A model generated the notes under the pieces. The model was not told the origin of the DNA. It worked only from the letters and a program-made list of their open reading frames with translations, and searched no databases. A program made the position numbers and the translations under genes. Shown here piece by piece: positions 35,182-53,228 of a stretch of DNA of 64,000 nucleotides. This stretch comes from Alphaproteobacteria bacterium (GTDB lineage: Bacteria; Pseudomonadota; Alphaproteobacteria; UBA7985; JAUIBT01): NCBI GenBank assembly GCA_030428255.1, contig JAUIBT010000016.1, positions 1 through 64,000 on the forward strand, read 5' to 3'. Each line of letters opens with the position of its first letter. Within the stretch, counting starts at the first letter, position 1.

Positions 35182-36234
35182 ATGCGCTTAGGATTGTTCG
35201 CAGTTCCCGCGGTGGTGCTCTTGGGGCTTTCGGCGTGTCAACCGCTGGATAGCGCAGACACCGTTGAAACCGCAGAGGTCGCCGTTCCCGTTCGTGACGG
35301 CATTTGTACCCCTCGGGTTGTTCAAGCTCAACCCAACCTTCCCCCTCAGACCATCATGGACGACCCGGATTGCGCACCTGCAACCGTTGTCGCGCCCATT
35401 CAGTCTGTTGCGGCTTACACAACAGAGCCCCTGGTTACCATCAGCGGTGACGTCGCTTTTGACGTGAACAGCGCCACCATCAAGGAGCGCTTCAAGAGCG
35501 AACTTGATGATATCGCGGCGCGCTTGATCTCGTCTGGTGGAAACTCCTTCACCGTTGTTGGTCACACCGACATTCGCGGTTCAGAAAAGTATAACCAGGA
35601 ACTGTCTGAAAAGCGTGCTCGTGCGGTTGCAGACTACTTGGTCGCTCGCGGTGTTCCGCGTGCTTACTTGCAGGTGCGTGGCGATGGCGAGGCCAGCCCG
35701 CTTGATCCCGGCATCAGCGATGAGGCCCACCGCCGCAATCGCCGCGTTGAGATCATCGGCACCGGTGGTGCCAGCATGGCTGGCGCGCCCAGCTACCAGC
35801 AGCAATTGCCTGTCGGCGCTCAAGGCTACAGCTATACCCAAGCCGCGCCGCGCTATAGCTACTCTGGTGCACAGCCAACCCCTGCCAACATGGCCCCGGT
35901 TCCTGCACAAATGCAGGCTTCGCCCGCAATCACCAACTATACGCAAGCGCCAAACGGTGGCTACATGGCACCTGGCTACGCACCAGGTTATGCGCCTGCA
36001 TACGGCACCCAGCCTGCATACGGCACCCAGCCAGCCTATGGCGCAGCGCCAGGCTACAATGCAGTCCCACAGTGTGGTGCCTACCCGCTGCAACCCTGTC
36101 CGCAAGCTCCCTACCCTTACCAGCCGGCGCCTCAAACCTCTCAGATGCAGCCTGACGAGACTGAGCAAGCCTCTGGTGAAAAGGGCGGAAACCGCTTTTT
36201 CTCGATGTTCGGATCGTACAAGAACAACGGTTAA
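35182..36234 (+). CDS. OmpA-domain outer membrane lipoprotein (Pal-like) with a Tyr/Pro-rich tail
   Basis: 350 residues; AGGAGA precedes the ATG. Lipobox LGLSAC (Cys19), then an OmpA-like domain (about 85-195) with FDVNSATIK, VVGHTDIRGS and NRRVEI, the features that bind diaminopimelate in peptidoglycan. The C-terminal 150 residues are low-complexity: Tyr/Pro/Gln-rich, with APGYAPGYAPAYGTQPAYG repeats and a basic end. Probably tethers the outer membrane to peptidoglycan. The tail may be surface-exposed or may bind other wall proteins. Confidence 0.9.
   Translation: MRLGLFAVPAVVLLGLSACQPLDSADTVETAEVAVPVRDGICTPRVVQAQPNLPPQTIMDDPDCAPATVVAPIQSVAAYTTEPLVTISGDVAFDVNSATIKERFKSELDDIAARLISSGGNSFTVVGHTDIRGSEKYNQELSEKRARAVADYLVARGVPRAYLQVRGDGEASPLDPGISDEAHRRNRRVEIIGTGGASMAGAPSYQQQLPVGAQGYSYTQAAPRYSYSGAQPTPANMAPVPAQMQASPAITNYTQAPNGGYMAPGYAPGYAPAYGTQPAYGTQPAYGAAPGYNAVPQCGAYPLQPCPQAPYPYQPAPQTSQMQPDETEQASGEKGGNRFFSMFGSYKNNG
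35995..36030 (+). repeat. Two perfect 18-bp units in the OmpA-lipoprotein tail
   Basis: CCTGCATACGGCACCCAG occurs at 35995 and again at 36013, followed by a diverged third copy. It encodes the six-residue repeat PAYGTQ. Confidence 0.85.
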
Positions 36235-40043: not shown

Positions 40044-42473
40044 ATGAGCCTCATGGCCAACCCAACGACGGAAAAGCTCAACGTCCCGGTTCTGCCGCTA
40101 CGCGATCTCGTGGTCTTTCCCCATATGATCGTCACACTGTTTGTCGGTCGTGACAAGTCAGTCAAAGCCCTGGAAGAGATGGACGGAGAGGGCAAAGAAA
40201 TTCTGCTGCTGACCCAGAAGAATGACGAGCAAGACGATCCCGCCCCCGAAGACCTGCATACCTTCGGGACCATCGCGAATGTCTTGCAGTACATCCGCCT
40301 TCCCGACGATACCATCAAGGTCTTGGTCGAGGGTGTCGGTCGCGCCCAGGTCCAAGACCTTCGCGACACTGGCGAGCGCTTCGAGGCGGACGTGGTGTTG
40401 CCGACCGAAGTGCTGGAGCCTAACGAGGAAACCGAGGCGCTGAAGCGTTCGGTCGTCAGTCAGTTTGAGCAGTACGTCAAGCTGAACAAAAAGGTCGTGC
40501 CTGAGGTCATGGTGACTGTCGGGCAGATCCAAGACCCCTCCAAGCTGGCCGACGTTGTCGCCGCTCAGTTGTCGATTGAATTGCCCGAAAAGCAAGACCT
40601 GCTGGAAAGCCTGGACATCGCCGAGCGTCTGGAAAAGTCGCTGATGCACATGGAAGGCGAAATCGGCGTTCTGAAGGTGGAAAAGCGCATCCGCAGCCGC
40701 GTCAAGCGCCAGATGGAGAAGACCCAGCGCGAGTACTACTTGAATGAGCAAATGAAGGCCATTCAAAAGGAGCTGGGCGAAGGCGAAGACGGCAAGGACG
40801 AGCTGGGCGAACTGGAAGAGCAGATCAAGGCTAAAGCGCTGAGCGATGAAGCGCGCGAGAAAGCCGAGGCCGAGCTTAAGAAGCTGCGCAACATGAGCCC
40901 CATGTCCGCAGAAGCCACCGTGGTGCGCAACTATCTGGATTGGATTGTTGGGATTCCTTGGTCGGAATCCACTGAAGTCAAAGAAGATTTGGCGGCCGCC
41001 CAAGCCATCCTCGACGAAGACCACTACGGGCTTGAAAAGGTCAAAGAGCGTATCGTCGAATATCTGGCCGTGCAAAAGCGCACCCAGAAGATGAAGGGCC
41101 CGATCTTGTGTTTGGTCGGCCCTCCTGGGGTCGGCAAGACCTCTTTGGGCAAGTCGATTGCCCGCGCCACTGGCCGTAATTTTGTGCGCATGTCCCTGGG
41201 CGGCGTGCGCGACGAGAGCGAAGTGCGCGGCCACCGTCGTACCTACATTGGCTCCATGCCCGGCAAAATCATTCAGGGCATGAAGAAAGCCAAATCGTCT
41301 AACCCTCTGTTCTTGCTCGATGAAATTGAGAAGTTGGGCCAAGACTGGCGCGGCGACCCGTCGTCTGCCTTGCTGGAAGTGCTGGACCCAGCACAGAACA
41401 GCACCTTCAATGACCACTATCTGGAAGTGGACTACGACCTGTCGGACGTCATGTTCATCACCACGGCCAACTCGTTGCGCATGCCGCAACCGCTGCTGGA
41501 TCGTATGGAGATCATTCGCCTGTCCGGCTACACCGAAGAAGAAAAGATTGAGATCGCTAAGCGCCACCTGATCCCCAAGTCGGTCAGCGACCACGGCCTG
41601 GCGCCTGAGGAGCTGATCATCGAGGATTCTGCCCTGCGCGACTTGGTGCGCTACTACACCCGTGAGGCGGGCGTGCGCAACCTGGAGCGCGAGCTGCAGA
41701 AGCTGGCGCGCAAAACCGTCAAGGCGCTTGAGGTCGATGGCAAGGACAAGCTGGTCATCTCAGCGGATAATCTGAATGACTATTCCGGCGTCCGCCGCTT
41801 CCGCTATGGCATGGCCGAGACTGAGGACACCGTCGGCATGACCACCGGCCTGGCCTACACCGAAGTCGGCGGCGATCTGCTGACCATCGAGAGCGTCACT
41901 GTGCCTGGCAAGGGGCGCGTTGTGGCCACCGGTCAGTTGGGTGACGTGATGAAGGAGTCGGTGCAAGCCGCTGAATCCTATGTCAAATCGCGTGCGCCGA
42001 TGTTTGGCATCAAGCCGACCATCTTCACCAAGCGCGATATCCACGTTCACGTGCCCGAGGGAGCAACACCCAAAGACGGCCCGTCGGCTGGTGTGGCTAT
42101 GGTGACCTCGATCGTCTCGTTGTTGACCGGCGTTCCTGTGCGCCACGACATCGCCATGACCGGTGAAGTTACTCTGCGTGGTCGCGTTCTGCCCATCGGC
42201 GGACTGAAAGAAAAGCTGTTGGCGGCCCTACGCGGCGGCATCAAAACTGTGCTGATCCCGGAGGAGAACGAAAAGGATCTGGCGGAGATCCCGGCCATCG
42301 TCACCGAAGGCCTGGAGATCATCCCGGTAGGCAACGCCGATCAGGTCTTGCAGCACGCGCTTAGTCATCCCTTGACCCCTATCGAGTGGGACGAGGAGAG
42401 CGAAGCCAAAGACGCGATCAAGCCCGAAGTTGCGACCTCGCCAACCTCCAGCGCCTCTCGCCTCACGCATTGA
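40044..42473 (+). CDS. lon: Lon protease
   Basis: 809 residues, full length: N-terminal substrate-binding domain ([15 protein letters not shown]), AAA+ domain (Walker [15 protein letters not shown], Walker [12 protein letters not shown]) and S16 protease domain with the Ser-Lys dyad in DGPSAGVAM and [14 protein letters not shown] lies about 8 bases before ATG 40044. Degrades misfolded and regulatory proteins. The HU gene that often follows lon is absent here. Confidence 0.98.
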
Positions 42474-47196: not shown

Positions 47197-47775
47197 TTGT
47201 CTGACTTCAAACCAACCGCACTGGATCTGCTAGCAGGCTCGTCGCTGGCTGAAGAAGCTGAGGCGCACCCCGCGCAAGGCTCGGAGCAGCACAGCACGCA
47301 TGGCGGTTCGGCCATCACCCTCAGCACGCTGATGGAAATGGCAGACAGAAATGAGCGCGTGACACGGCTTCAGCATGACGGTGGCCCCATCTCGTTCTCT
47401 CTCGCCAGAGCCTATATGTCCATGCTGCACCACCGCCAGCAAGCCGGCCGCCCCCACGCAGTCAGCCTGCATGCCGTAGCAGCAGGCAGCGACGGCATTC
47501 GCTTGCGCAAGATCGGCAAGCACGCGCTGGAAATCAAACCGAGCAATGATGCATTGTTCATCATCTTGAACTTGGATGCTTCGACTTCAGGTGATGCAGC
47601 CGCTCACCCCACTGCCATCGATCTTGTTGGCAGCATGGGCGATATCTTGTCGCTGGATCTGCCTGCCCCCATTGGCAGCGTCATTCAAATGGGCCTTCCC
47701 ATCGGTGACGGTCAGGCCCAGACATTCCAACGTTTGATTGATGACCCAGCAACGCTTATACAGCTATCGACCTAA
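47197..47775 (+). CDS. Hypothetical protein, first gene of the Lon-like/OmpA locus
   Basis: 192 residues if it starts at TTG 47197 (LSDFKPTALDLLAG); TTG 47137 would add 20 residues and neither has a strong SD. No signal peptide or membrane helix, so cytoplasmic. The N-terminal 45 residues are acidic and His/Ser-rich; the rest looks globular (ISFSLARAYMSMLHHRQQAG, GIRLRKIGKHALEIKPSND, then a hydrophobic beta-rich end). No family recognised. It lies 77 bp upstream of the Lon-like gene on the same strand. Confidence 0.6.
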   Translation: MSDFKPTALDLLAGSSLAEEAEAHPAQGSEQHSTHGGSAITLSTLMEMADRNERVTRLQHDGGPISFSLARAYMSMLHHRQQAGRPHAVSLHAVAAGSDGIRLRKIGKHALEIKPSNDALFIILNLDASTSGDAAAHPTAIDLVGSMGDILSLDLPAPIGSVIQMGLPIGDGQAQTFQRLIDDPATLIQLST

Positions 47776-47852
47776 GTATTTGCGCTGCCCAGCCTTCAGC
47801 CTCATCGTGATCTAGCGACAGGGTTTGGCCGCGCCCTAGCCCGAGGCCGAGC

Positions 47853-49016
47853 GTGACAAGCACCGCGATCCTAATTCCGACCACTGCTGGCCTGCGGCGC
47901 GTGTGCTCGGCACGCTTTCGCGAAGAGCTCCCGCTCAGCCAAATTCGCCTGGACGGCAGCTTTACACCCTTTCCCCAGTCGCAAGCGGCTCACCAATTGG
48001 TCTCCGGTCCATTGCGCGGCTTATCTGCCGAAGGACTCAGTTTCGACTTAGCCCTGGATGGCGAGATCGAGGACGGCCGCTCTTGGGAACTTGGCTTTGC
48101 GACAGCTTGGAGCTTTGCTCGCTTTTGGCCGGACCATCTGACCGGCGATGTTGATCAAGCCGAGCGTGTGATTTGGGTTACCGGCGCGATCGACATGGAT
48201 CTGGCTCCGCAAGCCGCCGCCTACTTTCTGTCCACTAAGCTCGCCTTAAGCGCTGACCTGTTCGACGCTATTGACGCCAAAGGCCAAGAGCTTTGGGTCA
48301 TAGCACCGCCGAAGCTGGGCTCCGACGACGAAGCCGCCTTAGCCGCATTGAGCGCAAAGGGCCAAGCCCGCGTTCTGCGGCCCAGCCACGTGCAGGATGT
48401 GTTGGAAGCGCTGGGGCCGCTCAATGAGCCCGGCATCGCAAGCCCCCCGCCCGCTGATCATACAACAGAGCCACTGCCCGCGGCGTCGCCGGAGGTCCCA
48501 GGCAGCTCGAGCCCTTTGGCGCCTTCGCATGCAAAGCCCGCCTTTGGCCGACCTATGATCATGGCTCTGGCGCTGGGCGGGCTTGGACTGCTTGCCGGGG
48601 TCGGACTACTGCTTTGGAGCTTGGCACCCAGCCCGCAAGCCCCGCAACTAGGCCTGATTGCCCACCATCTCAGTGAAGGGGATAAGACTTGCGTCGACCT
48701 GATTTTCGGCCAAACACAGGTCGTACCGGGCCAAGCGCAAGACCTAGATCTCAGCGCGCCTCTTCTCCTAACCAGTCAGGGCCTTTGCCAGCTCGAACTC
48801 ATCAATCCCGGCCCAGTAGCGCTGGCCCTCAGCTTGCCCACGGCCCTTAGCCGTCTTGCCGTCCATGACCTGTATCGCAATGAGGCGAAAATCGACATGC
48901 CAGCGGGCGCACGTCTGACAATTTCCCTCTCCGCTTTTCCACCTAAGCAGCAAGTGGTGATGATGGCCGACAGCGAAGCTGGAACCCAAGGCCAATTCAT
49001 CATAGATTTTCAATAA
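47853..49016 (+). CDS. Membrane protein with an N-terminal Lon/S16-like domain and a periplasmic two-Cys domain
   Basis: 387 residues from GTG 47853, with GAGG 8-9 bases upstream. Residues 1-190 follow the Lon protease domain: EDGRSWELGFATAWSF (Ser77, compare DGPSAG), WVTGAIDMDL (compare MTGEITL), LSTKLAL (Lys129, compare GGLKEKL), LWVIAPPK, and a final VQDVLEALG. There is no AAA+ part. A Pro-rich linker leads to one membrane helix (about 233-255), then a periplasmic domain (about 275-387) whose TC.D.IF...C....N..P...L..AL..L......LY pattern recurs in the next protein. Assignment by eye; activity is not certain. Confidence 0.65.
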   Translation: MTSTAILIPTTAGLRRVCSARFREELPLSQIRLDGSFTPFPQSQAAHQLVSGPLRGLSAEGLSFDLALDGEIEDGRSWELGFATAWSFARFWPDHLTGDVDQAERVIWVTGAIDMDLAPQAAAYFLSTKLALSADLFDAIDAKGQELWVIAPPKLGSDDEAALAALSAKGQARVLRPSHVQDVLEALGPLNEPGIASPPPADHTTEPLPAASPEVPGSSSPLAPSHAKPAFGRPMIMALALGGLGLLAGVGLLLWSLAPSPQAPQLGLIAHHLSEGDKTCVDLIFGQTQVVPGQAQDLDLSAPLLLTSQGLCQLELINPGPVALALSLPTALSRLAVHDLYRNEAKIDMPAGARLTISLSAFPPKQQVVMMADSEAGTQGQFIIDFQ

Positions 49017-49073
49017 GTTGTGCCGCAGATCTGGTTGCGGCGCTCAGCGTACCTTACGCCAGGAGCCTCGCCC

Positions 49074-49832
49074 ATGGCCTACCGCCGCAGCCCCCAGCGC
49101 ATTCGCCTAAAAGCCCAAGCAGCGATCCGCAATCCGCGGCCCTTGGGGTTAGGTTTTGGGCTCTTGTTCGCGGCCCTTGGTTTGTCTTGGATGCTTCAGG
49201 TTCAGCCTTTGGGCGCACAAGACCTTAACGCGATGATCAACGATCAACCCACCCAAGGTCAAACGACTCAAGACCAAACAACCCAGCCGCAAGCACCTGT
49301 CAGCCCCCCCAGCGCCACGGTGAGCCCGAGCGACGACACCAATACGGCTGCCACGCAGCCCACCAACCAAGCCAGCACGCAAGACCCTGGCGACCAAGAG
49401 AACTTCACGCCAGCCAACCGCTGTCCGCGCTGCGCCCTCTTCTCCGCCATCCAAATGGCCGAGTCTGGCACCTCCTGCCAAGACGTGATCTTCCAAGGCG
49501 CGGCTTCCTACTCTGTAACCGGCGATTTTGAAAACAGTGATATGCTTGAGGTCGATGCCCGCACGTCCTGCCGCATCTCCTTTTTCAATGACTCGCCTGA
49601 CCGCAGCATCGTCATCAAACTGGACCGTGCCTTGCGCGAACTGATCCTGGCGCCGTCGCCCGATCTCTATTCCGGCTATTTGCTGACCCCGCGCAGCTCG
49701 ATTGATCTCATCTTGCGCCCTGGCCAGATCCACCGCTCAGTTGAAGCCAAGAATATCGTCACCTGGAAGGACGCGACCCAAGTCGGCGACGCTGCCGACA
49801 GCCTGTTCAAAATCCGCATCCGCGCGAACTAG
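49074..49832 (+). CDS. Exported protein with the same two-Cys domain as its upstream neighbour
   Basis: 252 residues from ATG 49074 (GGAG upstream). Arg-rich N-terminus, signal sequence or anchor (about 25-50, ending LGAQ), a QTTQ/TQP-rich linker, then CPRC and a domain with SCQDVIF...SCRISFFNDSPDRSIVIKL.RAL..L....DLY, clearly parallel to the C-terminal domain of the Lon-like protein. Directly after the signal region it carries DLNAMINDQ, close to motifs in the two following proteins. Probably periplasmic. No known family recognised. 13 bp before the protease gene. Confidence 0.65.
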   Translation: MAYRRSPQRIRLKAQAAIRNPRPLGLGFGLLFAALGLSWMLQVQPLGAQDLNAMINDQPTQGQTTQDQTTQPQAPVSPPSATVSPSDDTNTAATQPTNQASTQDPGDQENFTPANRCPRCALFSAIQMAESGTSCQDVIFQGAASYSVTGDFENSDMLEVDARTSCRISFFNDSPDRSIVIKLDRALRELILAPSPDLYSGYLLTPRSSIDLILRPGQIHRSVEAKNIVTWKDATQVGDAADSLFKIRIRAN

Positions 49833-49844
49833 AGGAGCCGCATC

Positions 49845-50840
49845 ATGCGATACCGCTCAATGCTTCCCCCTACCAAAGCCCAAGCCCTTGCAGTGAGCCT
49901 CTTTGCAGCGGTCTGCTCTGGCGCAGCCCAGGCCCAGCTCTATGACGTCTCCTTGTTTGGCCAGGCCAATCTGACCATTTCTAAGGAGTCCCTTGGTGGC
50001 GGCGCTGACGACGTCAGCAAGAAAGGCAACACCTATGAGCCCATTGCCAAGTTCAGCGAAAGCTCAAACCTGCGCCGCTATGCCAAGTCCGTCTTCCGCA
50101 TTGATTTCGTCACCACGGAAGACGGCAAACGCGGCGTGAGCGTATGCACCTCAACTTTGGTTGCGCCCCAAGTCTTGCTGACCAATGCGCACTGCCTGTC
50201 GACCGAAAGCTATCAGGTTGAAGAGGCCATCGCCTGGTACAATCTGATCGACCAGGACGGCAAAGAGGCCCAGACCTTCAAGATCCGCACCCGCGCCTTC
50301 GAGAGCGACGCGGCTTTGGATTATGCCTTGGTGGAAATCCTCGACCCGCTGCCCGAACACATTAAGCCCGTTCCGCTCAAGAAGAGCATCGCCGTCAACG
50401 CCCGCGATCCTTTGAAGATTGTTCACCACCCGCGCGGACTGCCCCAACGCCTGTCAAGCTACGGCTGCGTCGCAGTGACCGAGACCGGAGCGCCGGACGT
50501 CATCTTAGGCCACCGTTGCGATACGCAAGGCGGCTCCTCCGGCTCGCTGGTGCTGGACGAGAACCTGACGCCGGTTGCTCTGCATCACCGCGCGGGCCTG
50601 CAACCCGATGATCCCGGCTCTTTCAACAAAGCCACCTACCTGAGCACAATCTTGGCCAGCTCCGCCTATTTGGCGCGCATTGCCCAGGCGCAAACGCCCT
50701 CCCAAGACCAGCCGCAACCCCAAAGCAGTGATCAAGGCCAGACCAGCACTCAGGGCCAAACTGGCACACCGTCGTATCAACCCGAAGGCAATGCCAAGGG
50801 CAACGATACCGGAACGATCAATGACTTAATTAACAACTAA
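49845..50840 (+). CDS. Secreted trypsin-like (S1) serine protease
   Basis: 331 residues; a strong SD (AGAGGAG) precedes ATG 49845. Signal peptide to about residue 30 (AQA). The triad is complete: His116 in LLTNAHC, Asp159 in DAALDYALVEI, Ser232 in QGGSSGSLV. Four cysteines in the core can form disulfides. The C-terminal 60 residues are Gln/Ser/Thr-rich and end in NDTGTINDLINN, a motif shared with its neighbours. Likely a periplasmic or secreted protease processing a partner of this locus. Confidence 0.85.
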   Translation: MRYRSMLPPTKAQALAVSLFAAVCSGAAQAQLYDVSLFGQANLTISKESLGGGADDVSKKGNTYEPIAKFSESSNLRRYAKSVFRIDFVTTEDGKRGVSVCTSTLVAPQVLLTNAHCLSTESYQVEEAIAWYNLIDQDGKEAQTFKIRTRAFESDAALDYALVEILDPLPEHIKPVPLKKSIAVNARDPLKIVHHPRGLPQRLSSYGCVAVTETGAPDVILGHRCDTQGGSSGSLVLDENLTPVALHHRAGLQPDDPGSFNKATYLSTILASSAYLARIAQAQTPSQDQPQPQSSDQGQTSTQGQTGTPSYQPEGNAKGNDTGTINDLINN

Positions 50841-50948
50841 TTCAGTGTGTTATGCAAGAATTTGCCTAGCCATTCCACCCCCTTCTCGAACCCTCACGAA
50901 GAGCCAAGCCGATCCTTTCCCCAGATCGCTCAACCAAGGAAATGTCTT

Positions 50949-51860
50949 ATGTTCCAGCTAGTCTCCCCCAAGAAATCACTCCTCGCCATGGTGGCAGCAG
51001 CCAGCGCCCTGGTCGGTCTGGCCAGCACCTCTGCGCAGGCACAGACGCCGCCCGGCGATGACACCAACACCATCAACGCGATGATCGAGGCGCTGTCGCC
51101 TCAACAGGCCCACGGCAACACCTATGGCCAGCGGATCATCACCGTGCCCGTGCCAATCTATAAGCAGCACCAGCCCTATGCAAAAGGCAACCAGCCGGTC
51201 ATCTATCAGCCGATCCTGCTGAACTACAACCACACCTATGACCTGGCGGTTTTCTTTGATTTTGACCGCGCAACCATCAAGCCCGAGGCGCGCTCCTTGC
51301 TGAACAGCCTGGGCTATGCGCTGATCTCCCCGGGCCTTGCGAACTCCACCTATCTGCTGGCCGGGCACACTGACGCCAAGGGCAGCGACAGCTATAACCT
51401 ATGGCTGTCAAACCGCCGTGCAGCGGCTGTTAAGTGGTATCTGACCTCGCACTTCCCAATTGCGCCGCACCGTCTGTTGACCGCGGGCTTTGGTGAAAGC
51501 CGCTTGGCCGACCCCGCCCATCCGCGCGCAGCCGTCAACCGCCGCGTTGAGATCACTTTGATCGACCAGGGGTATATCGAGCAAGGCAACTTGCAGAATA
51601 TCCCCTCGCCCAAAGTTATTTATCCTAACGGCAACCCGAACTGTGACCCCAACACCTCTGGATATTTGCAAGACAGCCGTCCAGCGGACCAGAACTTGGA
51701 TGACTTCAACACCCCGCGCCTGCCGGTCGAGTGCTTGAACAACCCCGATGCTCCCATTGTGGTCCCAGTCCCAGCGCCGGTCGATACGCAAAACAGTCCT
51801 AAGGTGCAAGTCGTCCCGGCTGATCCGACGGACACCACCAACTCTATCATTGGCAACTAA
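50949..51860 (+). CDS. OmpA-domain periplasmic/outer-membrane protein
   Basis: 303 residues from ATG 50949 (AAGGAAA upstream). Signal peptide (about 1-33, ending AQA), then GDDTNTINAMIEAL, an OmpA domain (about 95-205) with FFDFDRATIKPEA, LLAGHTDAKGSDSYN and AVNRRVEITL, and a Pro/Val-rich tail ending DPTDTTNSIIGN. The DT..I motifs just after the signal sequence and at the C-terminus match those of the protease and the two-Cys protein. It would dock the complex to peptidoglycan. A strong terminator follows. Confidence 0.87.
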   Translation: MFQLVSPKKSLLAMVAAASALVGLASTSAQAQTPPGDDTNTINAMIEALSPQQAHGNTYGQRIITVPVPIYKQHQPYAKGNQPVIYQPILLNYNHTYDLAVFFDFDRATIKPEARSLLNSLGYALISPGLANSTYLLAGHTDAKGSDSYNLWLSNRRAAAVKWYLTSHFPIAPHRLLTAGFGESRLADPAHPRAAVNRRVEITLIDQGYIEQGNLQNIPSPKVIYPNGNPNCDPNTSGYLQDSRPADQNLDDFNTPRLPVECLNNPDAPIVVPVPAPVDTQNSPKVQVVPADPTDTTNSIIGN

Positions 51861-51888
51861 GCCAAGCCCATAGAGACGCTCAACGTCG

Positions 51889-51934
51889 CCGCCCCTTGAA
51901 CGCAGTCTTGCGCTTCGAGGGGCGGTTTCTTTGT
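51889..51934 (+). terminator. Terminator of the Lon-like/protease/OmpA locus
   Basis: CCGCCCCT (51889-51896) pairs with AGGGGCGG (51918-51925); the stem continues with GAA/TTC and CGCA/TGCG around GTCT, and TTTCTTTGTG follows. It separates the locus from the GH3 gene. Confidence 0.8.
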
Positions 51935-51950
51935 GTTACGCCAAAGGGCA

Positions 51951-51990
51951 CTACAAGGAACCTCAGGGAACTACAGGGAACTAAGGAGAG
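51951..51990 (+). repeat. Four 10-bp units in the GH3 gene leader
   Basis: CTACAAGGAA, CCTCAGGGAA, CTACAGGGAA and CTAAGGAGAG follow one another; each contains an SD-like AGG. They lie about 100 bp upstream of ATG 52089. Confidence 0.6.
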
Positions 51991-52088
51991 CCACAGGCCC
52001 TCACAGGGTCCGACTGGAATGCCACCGCTCCCCTTGGCTCCCTGCTCTCTTAGATTTGCCTCTTGAATTTACCCGTTTGGAATTGCCC

Positions 52089-53228
52089 ATGCCGCGCGCT
52101 ATTTTGCTGATAGTCTCAACCCTGGTTTGCCTTACGAGCATAGCGCCTGTGACAAAGGCCCAAAGCCCGACTGCGAACGCGACCCCAGTGGCGTACCCCG
52201 CCGCCGCGCTGAGCCCTGAGCAGATGGTCGGCAGTCTGATCATGATGGGATTTCGCGGCCAAACCCCACCAGACCCCGGCAGCGTGGCTATTGCCCAAGC
52301 GCTAAAGGATCGGCGTGTGGGCGCGGTTCTAACCGTCAAGCGCAACTTTGGCGACGGCCAAGCGGCGAAGATGCTGGCGACCGGCTTGCAGGAGGCCTCG
52401 CCCGATGGACTGCCGGTGCTGATCGGTATCGACCAAGAGGGCGGTTTGATCCAGCGCTTGGGGCCTGCACAAGGCTGGAAGCCCATGCCCAGCGCTGAGG
52501 CTATCGCTCGCGACCTGAGCCCCGCCGAGGCCGAAGCGCTCTATCGCCGCGTGGCCTGCACTCTGCGTCATTGGGGCTTTACCTATAATTTGGGGCCGGT
52601 GGTGGACCTAGTGCGTCAACCCAACAATCCGGTGATCGTCAAACTGCACCGTTCCTTTGGACGAGAGGCCGAGGCCGTCGCCACCTATGCAGCGGCGGCC
52701 GTGCGCGCGCACCGCGCCTGCGGTGTGCTGACGGCGCTCAAGCATTTTCCCGGGCACGGCTCCTCCCTGCAGGACAGCCACAAGGGTCTGACCGATGTCA
52801 CCAACTTGTGGCACCCAGAAGAAATGGACCCCTTCGCGCTGTTGATCCGTCAGGGCATGGCCGACAGCATCATGACCGCCCACATCAGCCACACCAAGGT
52901 TGACCCTGATTTGCCTGCCAGTCTGTCGCCGATCTTCATTGGCGAGGTCCTGCGGCAAACCTTGGGCTACCAGGGGCTGGTGATCAGCGACGACATGACC
53001 ATGGGCGCAATTGCCGACCACTACGGCAGTGTCGAGGCGGCGGTACAGGCGCTGGACGCTGGCGCGGACATGATCATGGTCGCAACCCCCATCGACGAAG
53101 CTCCTGAGCTGCCCGGCCAGATCATCGCTGGGGTCTTGGCCGCCGTGAAAAGCGGCAAACTGGACTGGTCGCGCATCGAGCAAGCCTTTGGCCGGGTCCA
53201 AGCCGCCCGCGCAGCACTGCATCGCTAA
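52089..53228 (+). CDS. Exported glycoside hydrolase family 3 (NagZ-like beta-N-acetylhexosaminidase)
   Basis: 379 residues from ATG 52089. Signal peptide (about 1-24, ending TKAQ). NagZ signature: IGIDQEGGLIQRL, then the His-Asp motif ALKHFPGHGSSLQDSHKG and the nucleophile region VISDDMTMGAI. Typical NagZ is cytoplasmic and recycles muropeptides; the export signal implies periplasmic action on peptidoglycan or another amino-sugar polymer. It is separated from the OmpA gene by a terminator. No ampG or anhydro-muropeptide gene nearby. Confidence 0.87.
   Translation: MPRAILLIVSTLVCLTSIAPVTKAQSPTANATPVAYPAAALSPEQMVGSLIMMGFRGQTPPDPGSVAIAQALKDRRVGAVLTVKRNFGDGQAAKMLATGLQEASPDGLPVLIGIDQEGGLIQRLGPAQGWKPMPSAEAIARDLSPAEAEALYRRVACTLRHWGFTYNLGPVVDLVRQPNNPVIVKLHRSFGREAEAVATYAAAAVRAHRACGVLTALKHFPGHGSSLQDSHKGLTDVTNLWHPEEMDPFALLIRQGMADSIMTAHISHTKVDPDLPASLSPIFIGEVLRQTLGYQGLVISDDMTMGAIADHYGSVEAAVQALDAGADMIMVATPIDEAPELPGQIIAGVLAAVKSGKLDWSRIEQAFGRVQAARAALHR

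Follow-up and report, generated by a model that had tools for sequence, protein, structure and literature searches.

The 64,000-nucleotide stretch of DNA analysed here (the window; positions 1 to 64,000 of contig JAUIBT010000016.1 from an alphaproteobacterium) carries a locus of five genes, named g1 to g5, whose second member encodes a single-pass membrane protein. Residues 1-192 of g2 have the fold of a Lon-type (S16) protease with a Ser-Lys dyad. This domain is probably catalytic, because a strongly diverged family keeps exactly the positions of the Lon Ser, TG motif and Lys. Gene g1, and in other genera also a further gene whose product we call X, is the conserved genetic partner of g2, and the window locus is a compact variant of a wider operon. 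We read it as an envelope-sensing module of regulated proteolysis built on a membrane-tethered, ATPase-free Lon-type serine protease, an interpretation that we doubt slightly more than we trust. The five genes and the relevant parts of g2 are the following.

47197..47775, + strand: g1, a protein of ~192 amino acids without signal peptide or transmembrane (TM) helix
47853..49016, + strand: g2, a 387-amino-acid single-pass membrane protein (Lon-type domain, TM helix, Ig-like Cys-pair domain)
47853..48428, + strand: Lon-type (S16-like) domain of g2, residues 1-192, no AAA+, by profile and structure
48081..48083, + strand: Ser77 of g2 in the GxSW motif; Ser in 24/24 homologues, paired by hhalign with the Ser of Lon GPSAG
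48237..48239, + strand: Lys129 of g2, aligned with the Lon catalytic lysine; Lys in 24/24 family members
48540..48614, + strand: TM helix of g2, about residues 230-254 (hydropathy 2.34 over 19 residues)
48636..49013, + strand: Ig-like domain of g2, modelled by AlphaFold 2 as a beta-sandwich (Z about 6 to MSP/PapD-type folds)
49020..49832, + strand: g3, exported, with a signal region near residues 41-66, a low-complexity linker and a C-terminal domain
49845..50840, + strand: g4, exported trypsin-fold serine protease with the triad His116/Asp159/Ser232
50949..51860, + strand: g5, exported OmpA-domain peptidoglycan-binding protein

The original prediction, made from the sequence of the window, had seen in g2 a Lon/S16-like N-terminal domain without AAA+, and profile and structure confirm that fold in residues 1-190. 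When a family of 24 g2 members was compared by hhalign with Lon alignments, the probability was 75-86 (P 6e-6 to 3e-5), whereas controls (DUF4384, g3, g4 and g5) gave a probability of ≤1. A profile search of PDB sequences with the same family returned Lon proteases in ~40 of 42 rows (best E 4.7e-5). The AlphaFold model of g2 obtained with 23 sequences has a mean predicted local distance difference test score (pLDDT) of 80, mostly >85 in residues 1-192 and >90 over much of residues 1-190. VIA-align, run on the Foldseek candidates of this good model, placed 28 Lon-family PDB entries in the lead for residues 1-192 (Z 11.8-13.7 over 158-176 residues), and the next unrelated row reached only Z 6.6. 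With Foldseek alone, Ig-like matches of the C-terminal domain lead and no Lon stands among the top rows. Structure prediction, set beforehand as one of two tests that could refute the proposal, does show a Lon-like fold in g2 residues 1-190. Most of the 24 homologues are ~20% identical to the window g2, and their invariant residues are Thr10, Gly52, Gly75, Ser77, Trp78, Gly111, Lys129 and Cys312. Ser77, Gly111 and Lys129 coincide with the Lon Ser, TG motif and Lys, and the distance from Thr110-Gly111 to Lys129 is 18-19 residues, as in Lon. No AAA+ match was found in the 24 members, the Lon part being followed only by a linker, the TM helix and a beta domain of 126 amino acids. At the stage of three sequences hhalign gave no Lon signal, a test with a position-specific scoring matrix scored equal to decoys and shuffles, and AlphaFold produced a model of pLDDT 45 whose best structural neighbours were Rossmann-like (Z about 8); rejection of the Lon identity, which looked right with these three sequences, was overturned by the deeper 24-member family.

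MtaLonC, LonA and LonB (MEROPS S16) resemble g2 in fold (Z up to 13.7) and in the positions of the Ser-Lys dyad, MtaLonC being 18% identical to it over 174-176 residues. Unlike these proteases, g2 is a bitopic protein that has no AAA+ domain, is membrane-tethered and begins with its Lon domain, and its serine motif reads GxSWxLG where that of Lon reads GPSAG. The Lon-like domains of ComM, RadA and BrxL, three soluble ATPases, occur outside ATP-dependent proteolysis and are thought to be oligomerisation scaffolds. The Lon-type domain of g2 might be such a non-proteolytic scaffold, with a membrane ring of g2 holding X and g1 and coupling the periplasmic parts. The ComM and BrxL domains share the g2 fold and rank among its closest structural neighbours (Z 12.2-13.2), g2 lacks a fused AAA+ ATPase, and the overlaps between the X, g1 and g2 genes (see below) fit a stable complex. 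However, all 24 diverged g2 homologues keep the Ser-Lys pair unchanged, which sets g2 apart from ComM, RadA and BrxL, and a mere scaffold would not need the dyad. We consider the scaffold explanation unlikely.

Early g2 searches, made with too narrow a query, matched nothing beyond the genus of the window; they covered 96 relatives, the 11-genome order and, as a pattern scan, 84,980 species. When plasmids were searched by tblastn, g2 gave one match, on a mobilizable plasmid of Methylobacterium aquaticum (residues 6-140 at 36% identity, E 2e-10), and the best plasmid match of g4 lies on the same record ~0.9 kb further on (37%, E 1e-35). The plasmid row consists of a caspase gene, three unnamed genes, g1 (BLASTP E 6e-4) and g2 homologues, a serine protease and an OmpA family protein, and the order g1-g2-g4-g5 is common to the window genus and Hyphomicrobiales. 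A profile of four g2 N-terminal domains matched 27 of the 389 genomes of the class at E ≤0.01, the genome of the window and a congener included; two of these matches are weak, which leaves 25 of 389 alphaproteobacterial genomes (~6%) secure. No g2 match was found in the phage and viral collections. Maximum-likelihood analysis unites the window genus with M. aquaticum (support 99/97), and this is the group that has the trypsin gene; the grouping is provisional because branches are long. One further match of the N-terminal domain lies inside an open frame of 829 amino acids (L140 8639-11128) and may reflect a gene fusion or an artefact of the frame.

Up to 20 kb were fetched around each match and the 494 predicted proteins were clustered. 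The recurring arrangement is X, g1, g2: X, an unnamed protein of ~550 amino acids, is present in 21 loci and g1, by BLAST, in 18, in most loci directly 5′ of g2. In several loci X overlaps g1, and g1 overlaps g2, by 4 bases. The window g1 is 85% identical to that of a congener and matches the 18-member family from other genera with an hhalign probability of 95.5 (P 1.5e-8). No named family of Pfam or NCBIfam covers X, g1 or g2, g1 has no match in Pfam, NCBIfam or PDB, and PDB profile searches with the X and g1 families, the latter likewise unnamed, returned nothing. g1 is probably cytoplasmic because it has neither a signal peptide nor a TM helix, the latter by hydropathy. The other result that would have refuted the proposal, no co-occurrence of the genes in other genomes, did not appear either: g1-g2-g4-g5 stand together in Methylobacterium and g1-g2 in about 18 more loci. 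The full set of five is specific to the window genus because g3 was found only there.

Hydropathy places the single TM helix of nearly all g2 homologues at the same position after the Lon domain. The Lon domain would face the cytoplasm and the Cys-pair domain the periplasm. The cysteines of the latter are conserved in 22 of 24 (Cys280) and 24 of 24 homologues (Cys312). hhalign shows homology between this C-terminal domain of g2 and the C-terminal part of g3 (P 1.2e-5, or 9e-5 when the wider family is used). g3 is thus a secreted protein related to the second, Ig-like domain of g2, and the earlier notion that the two periplasmic domains belong together holds at the level of homology. g3 may be a secreted partner of this periplasmic domain of g2, or its competitor. 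It had been described as an exported two-Cys protein; its export signal stands, while the mature protein has four invariant cysteines (C135, C138, C153 and C184) instead of two. Relatives of g3 were seen only in the window genus, and no match was found between g3 and the other neighbour families of related loci. DUF4384 was considered as the identity of g3 and of the g2 C-terminal domain and rejected (hhalign probability ≤1).

The two remaining proteins are those predicted. g4 is a complete S1 protease that matches Trypsin_2 above the cut-off (E 1e-12), with His116, Asp159 and Ser232 invariant and in the right order. It also matches the glutamyl endopeptidase 1p3c of PDB (E 4e-4), near whose HN its conserved His247 is aligned. 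A histidine of this kind presumably belongs to the Glu-specific pocket in 1p3c-type enzymes, and His247 suggests a glutamyl-endopeptidase-like (V8-like) specificity for g4. Other distant trypsin relatives (in G334, G163 and G291) were set aside as their contexts are unrelated. The OmpA domain of g5 (E 6e-18, 65.5 bits against a cut-off of 27.2) keeps the usual ligand pair, Asp176 and Arg191, invariant and 15 residues apart. A short motif, [TILMV]N.[ILM][IL], is found in four copies in g3-g5 and in none in g1 or g2.

49224..49238, + strand: LNAMI, immediately following the signal peptide of g3, position shared by 3 species
50817..50840, + strand: INDLINN, the exact C-terminus of g4, conserved at the same place in 3 species
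51072..51086, + strand: INAMI (INAMIEALSP), mature N-terminus of g5, at the same place in 3 species
51837..51851, + strand: TNSII, C-terminus of g5, conserved in 3 species

The positions of the motif are constant in the 3 species though the flanking linkers vary; its background is 0.0003 per residue, but the count is no independent test because the motif had been spotted by eye before counting. The DNA form of INxLIxN-stop occurs once per genome in the 3 genomes of the genus, only at the end of g4. The C-terminus of M. aquaticum g4 is MNAILRGR, and OmpA proteins of other loci carry LNQIIRSLAP or IIRSLAP, which INAMIEALSP of g5 resembles. We infer that the sequence shared by g3-g5 is a docking motif.

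CalpL, an ATPase-free Lon protease switched by a sensor domain, cleaves its partner CalpT (PMC11417357). CalpL (a SAVED-Lon protein of type III CRISPR encoded with CalpT/CalpS) and CARF-Lon resemble g2 as AAA+-free Lon domains fused to a sensor and encoded with partners, and the PADLOC model CARF_LON matches the Lon part (residues 96-201) of the g2 homologue in one related locus (L137, E 3.5e-4). The CalpL and CARF-Lon sensors are cytosolic cyclic-nucleotide binders, whereas the sensor of g2 would be the Ig-like Cys-pair domain beyond the membrane helix; the partners of CalpL are an anti-sigma/sigma pair and those of g2 are g1 and X. No SAVED or CARF domain was found in the window g2 with Pfam and PADLOC, its C-terminal domain being modelled as an Ig-like sandwich.

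In the mechanism that we propose, g5 would anchor the periplasmic components to the cell wall by means of the short motifs common to g3-g5. When conditions at the wall or in the periplasm change, an event that g4 cleavage would read or trigger, the binding between g3 and the periplasmic domain of g2 would be altered. Molecules of g2 would thereby be brought together and their cytoplasmic Lon domains switched on, in the manner of CalpL, which is oligomerised and activated by second-messenger binding. The active domain would then cleave a cytoplasmic partner, most likely g1 (g1 or X in relatives), and so produce a cellular response; g1 and X are the nearest candidates for a substrate or regulator of g2.

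Several points weigh against regulated proteolysis by an envelope-sensing g2. The sequence-level likeness to Lon comes mostly from the TG...K half of the domain, and its Ser half depends on structure and invariance. We infer the membrane orientation of g2, as well as the topology, activity, substrate and trigger of the module. X, the commonest partner, is found neither in the window nor in the contigs fetched for its genus, and the steps assigned to g3 and g4 may be local additions because both genes lie outside the core of the wider family.

The core X-g1-g2 stands within a long conserved gene row of ~20 kb in each of eight loci (L134-L137, L142, L146, L150 and L152), in which almost no gene has a family name. 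Its variable members are a CsgG/peptidoglycan-binding or DUF4384 protein, lipoproteins, a proline-rich single-TM protein, a short single-TM protein with NAMTEIALALAMAFF, SLT lytic transglycosylases (NCBIfam E 1e-16; lytic transglycosylases are found in 13 related loci) and a protein with four TM helices and weak similarity to ZorA (MotA/ExbB/TolQ; PADLOC E 0.006). OmpA genes lie near the core in L105, L137, L141 and L146, and caspase genes in the fetched stretch of L105, L139, L141, L144 and L146. Within the 64-kb window none of the wider-operon families was found except OmpA, and there was no channel-family match. The working idea of a trans-envelope module in the original prediction had its Lon-like part right and missed both the most widely conserved partner, X, and the adjacent envelope machinery. 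No described system with this gene set was found in the open-access full-text literature searched, Pfam, NCBIfam or PADLOC. Whether these loci form a previously undescribed trans-envelope signalling class of Alphaproteobacteria, in which an ATPase-free Lon-type protease switched from the periplasm works with X, g1, wall enzymes, proteases of trypsin or caspase type and a channel resembling MotA/ExbB, seems to us evenly balanced. Sensor-linked Lon-type proteases without AAA+ known so far are switched by soluble ligands; an inner-membrane-tethered Lon with a periplasmic domain, if true, would be a new kind of envelope-to-cytoplasm signalling by proteolysis. A small, testable gene set could also explain long unannotated operons, some adjoining bacterial caspases, because the core X, g1 and g2 is without family yet present in 25 of 389 genomes.

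The same neighbourhoods raise the question of an anti-phage or conflict system, in which an envelope breach or invader signal would fire a protease cascade (Lon-like, trypsin-like and, in relatives, caspase). Conflict systems with trypsin/caspase cascades and OmpA-type anchors were described by Kaur et al. 2020 (PMC7159879), and the locus and its relatives likewise combine trypsin or caspase genes with peptidoglycan-anchor domains. None of the vWA/MoxR, STAND or EAD parts of those systems was recognised here, and a text search of PMC7159879 found no mention of Lon protease or peptidase. The MotA/ExbB-like four-TM and OmpA proteins in the loci of relatives recall Zorya (MotA-like ZorA and OmpA-domain ZorB), but the Lon-like gene, X and g1 are no Zorya genes and a channel gene is missing from the window locus; ZorC/D/E partners were not recognised, and the likeness of the window to Zorya is a generic OmpA/MotB similarity of g5. 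The caspase genes in five loci, the copy on a mobilizable plasmid and the CARF_LON and weak ZorA matches fit a conflict system. The remaining PADLOC matches, however, are either weak or due to generic parts (OmpA, MotA/ExbB or caspase), the phage and viral collections gave no g2 match, the locus is stably syntenic in the window genus, and many loci are long conserved operons with lytic transglycosylases, more like cell-envelope machinery. We regard a conflict system as rather improbable. A periplasmic protein-quality and wall-remodelling cluster, in which g4 would degrade damaged proteins at the wall, a GH3 glycosidase and lytic transglycosylases would remodel glycan and g2 would be an inner-membrane link only, agrees with the GH3 gene adjoining the locus in 3 of 3 genomes, the transglycosylases of the 13 loci and the OmpA anchors, but is a quite remote prospect, as the best-conserved parts of the module (X, g1 and the Lon domain) are probably cytoplasmic and are not explained by remodelling alone.

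Caspase genes lie beside the core on plasmid and chromosome (L105 2943-5063; L146 1345-3579 and 16983-19211, two copies). Within the same taxonomic order, a different family has DUF4384, OmpA, trypsin-like protease and polysaccharide deacetylase genes in a row (L041 126-5482, G006:C94) on a short contig that contains no g1 or g2.

The five open reading frames of the window locus are all on the + strand and are closed by a strong terminator, as had been described, with the GH3 gene beyond it.

51888..51926 (approximate), + strand: intrinsic terminator, hairpin and U-tract (-36.7 kcal/mol, z -5.6 against 200 shuffles)
51933..53228, + strand: g6, GH3 glycosidase (PF00933 E 4e-63), with a hydrophobic signal-like N-terminus by hydropathy

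The gaps g2/g3 and g3/g4 are 3 and 12 bases long. The starts described for g1-g4 are kept as placed, while the GTG at 50847 given for g5 is probably too early: its true start is most likely the ATG at 50949, because this start is common to its orthologues in the alignment. Among g1-g5 a Pfam scan recognised only two domains, trypsin in g4 and OmpA in g5, with no match for g1, g2 and g3, and an NCBIfam scan gave no convincing match for g1-g4. The order and strand of g1-g5 are kept in both other genomes of the genus (protein identity 53-83%), whose records are metagenome-assembled and one of whose contigs begins at g2; g6 lies 3′ of the locus in all 3 genomes.

The aminotransferase gene 5′ of g1 is intact in the window and reduced to fragments in congener G002 (L004 7286-7802). 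The proteolytic domain of an ordinary AAA+ Lon protease is encoded 5 kb upstream of the locus (window 41757-42365), a proximity that is probably due to chance because the congeners carry Lon on other contigs. A second OmpA-domain gene of the window, an open frame of 354 amino acids, is found at 35449-35757.

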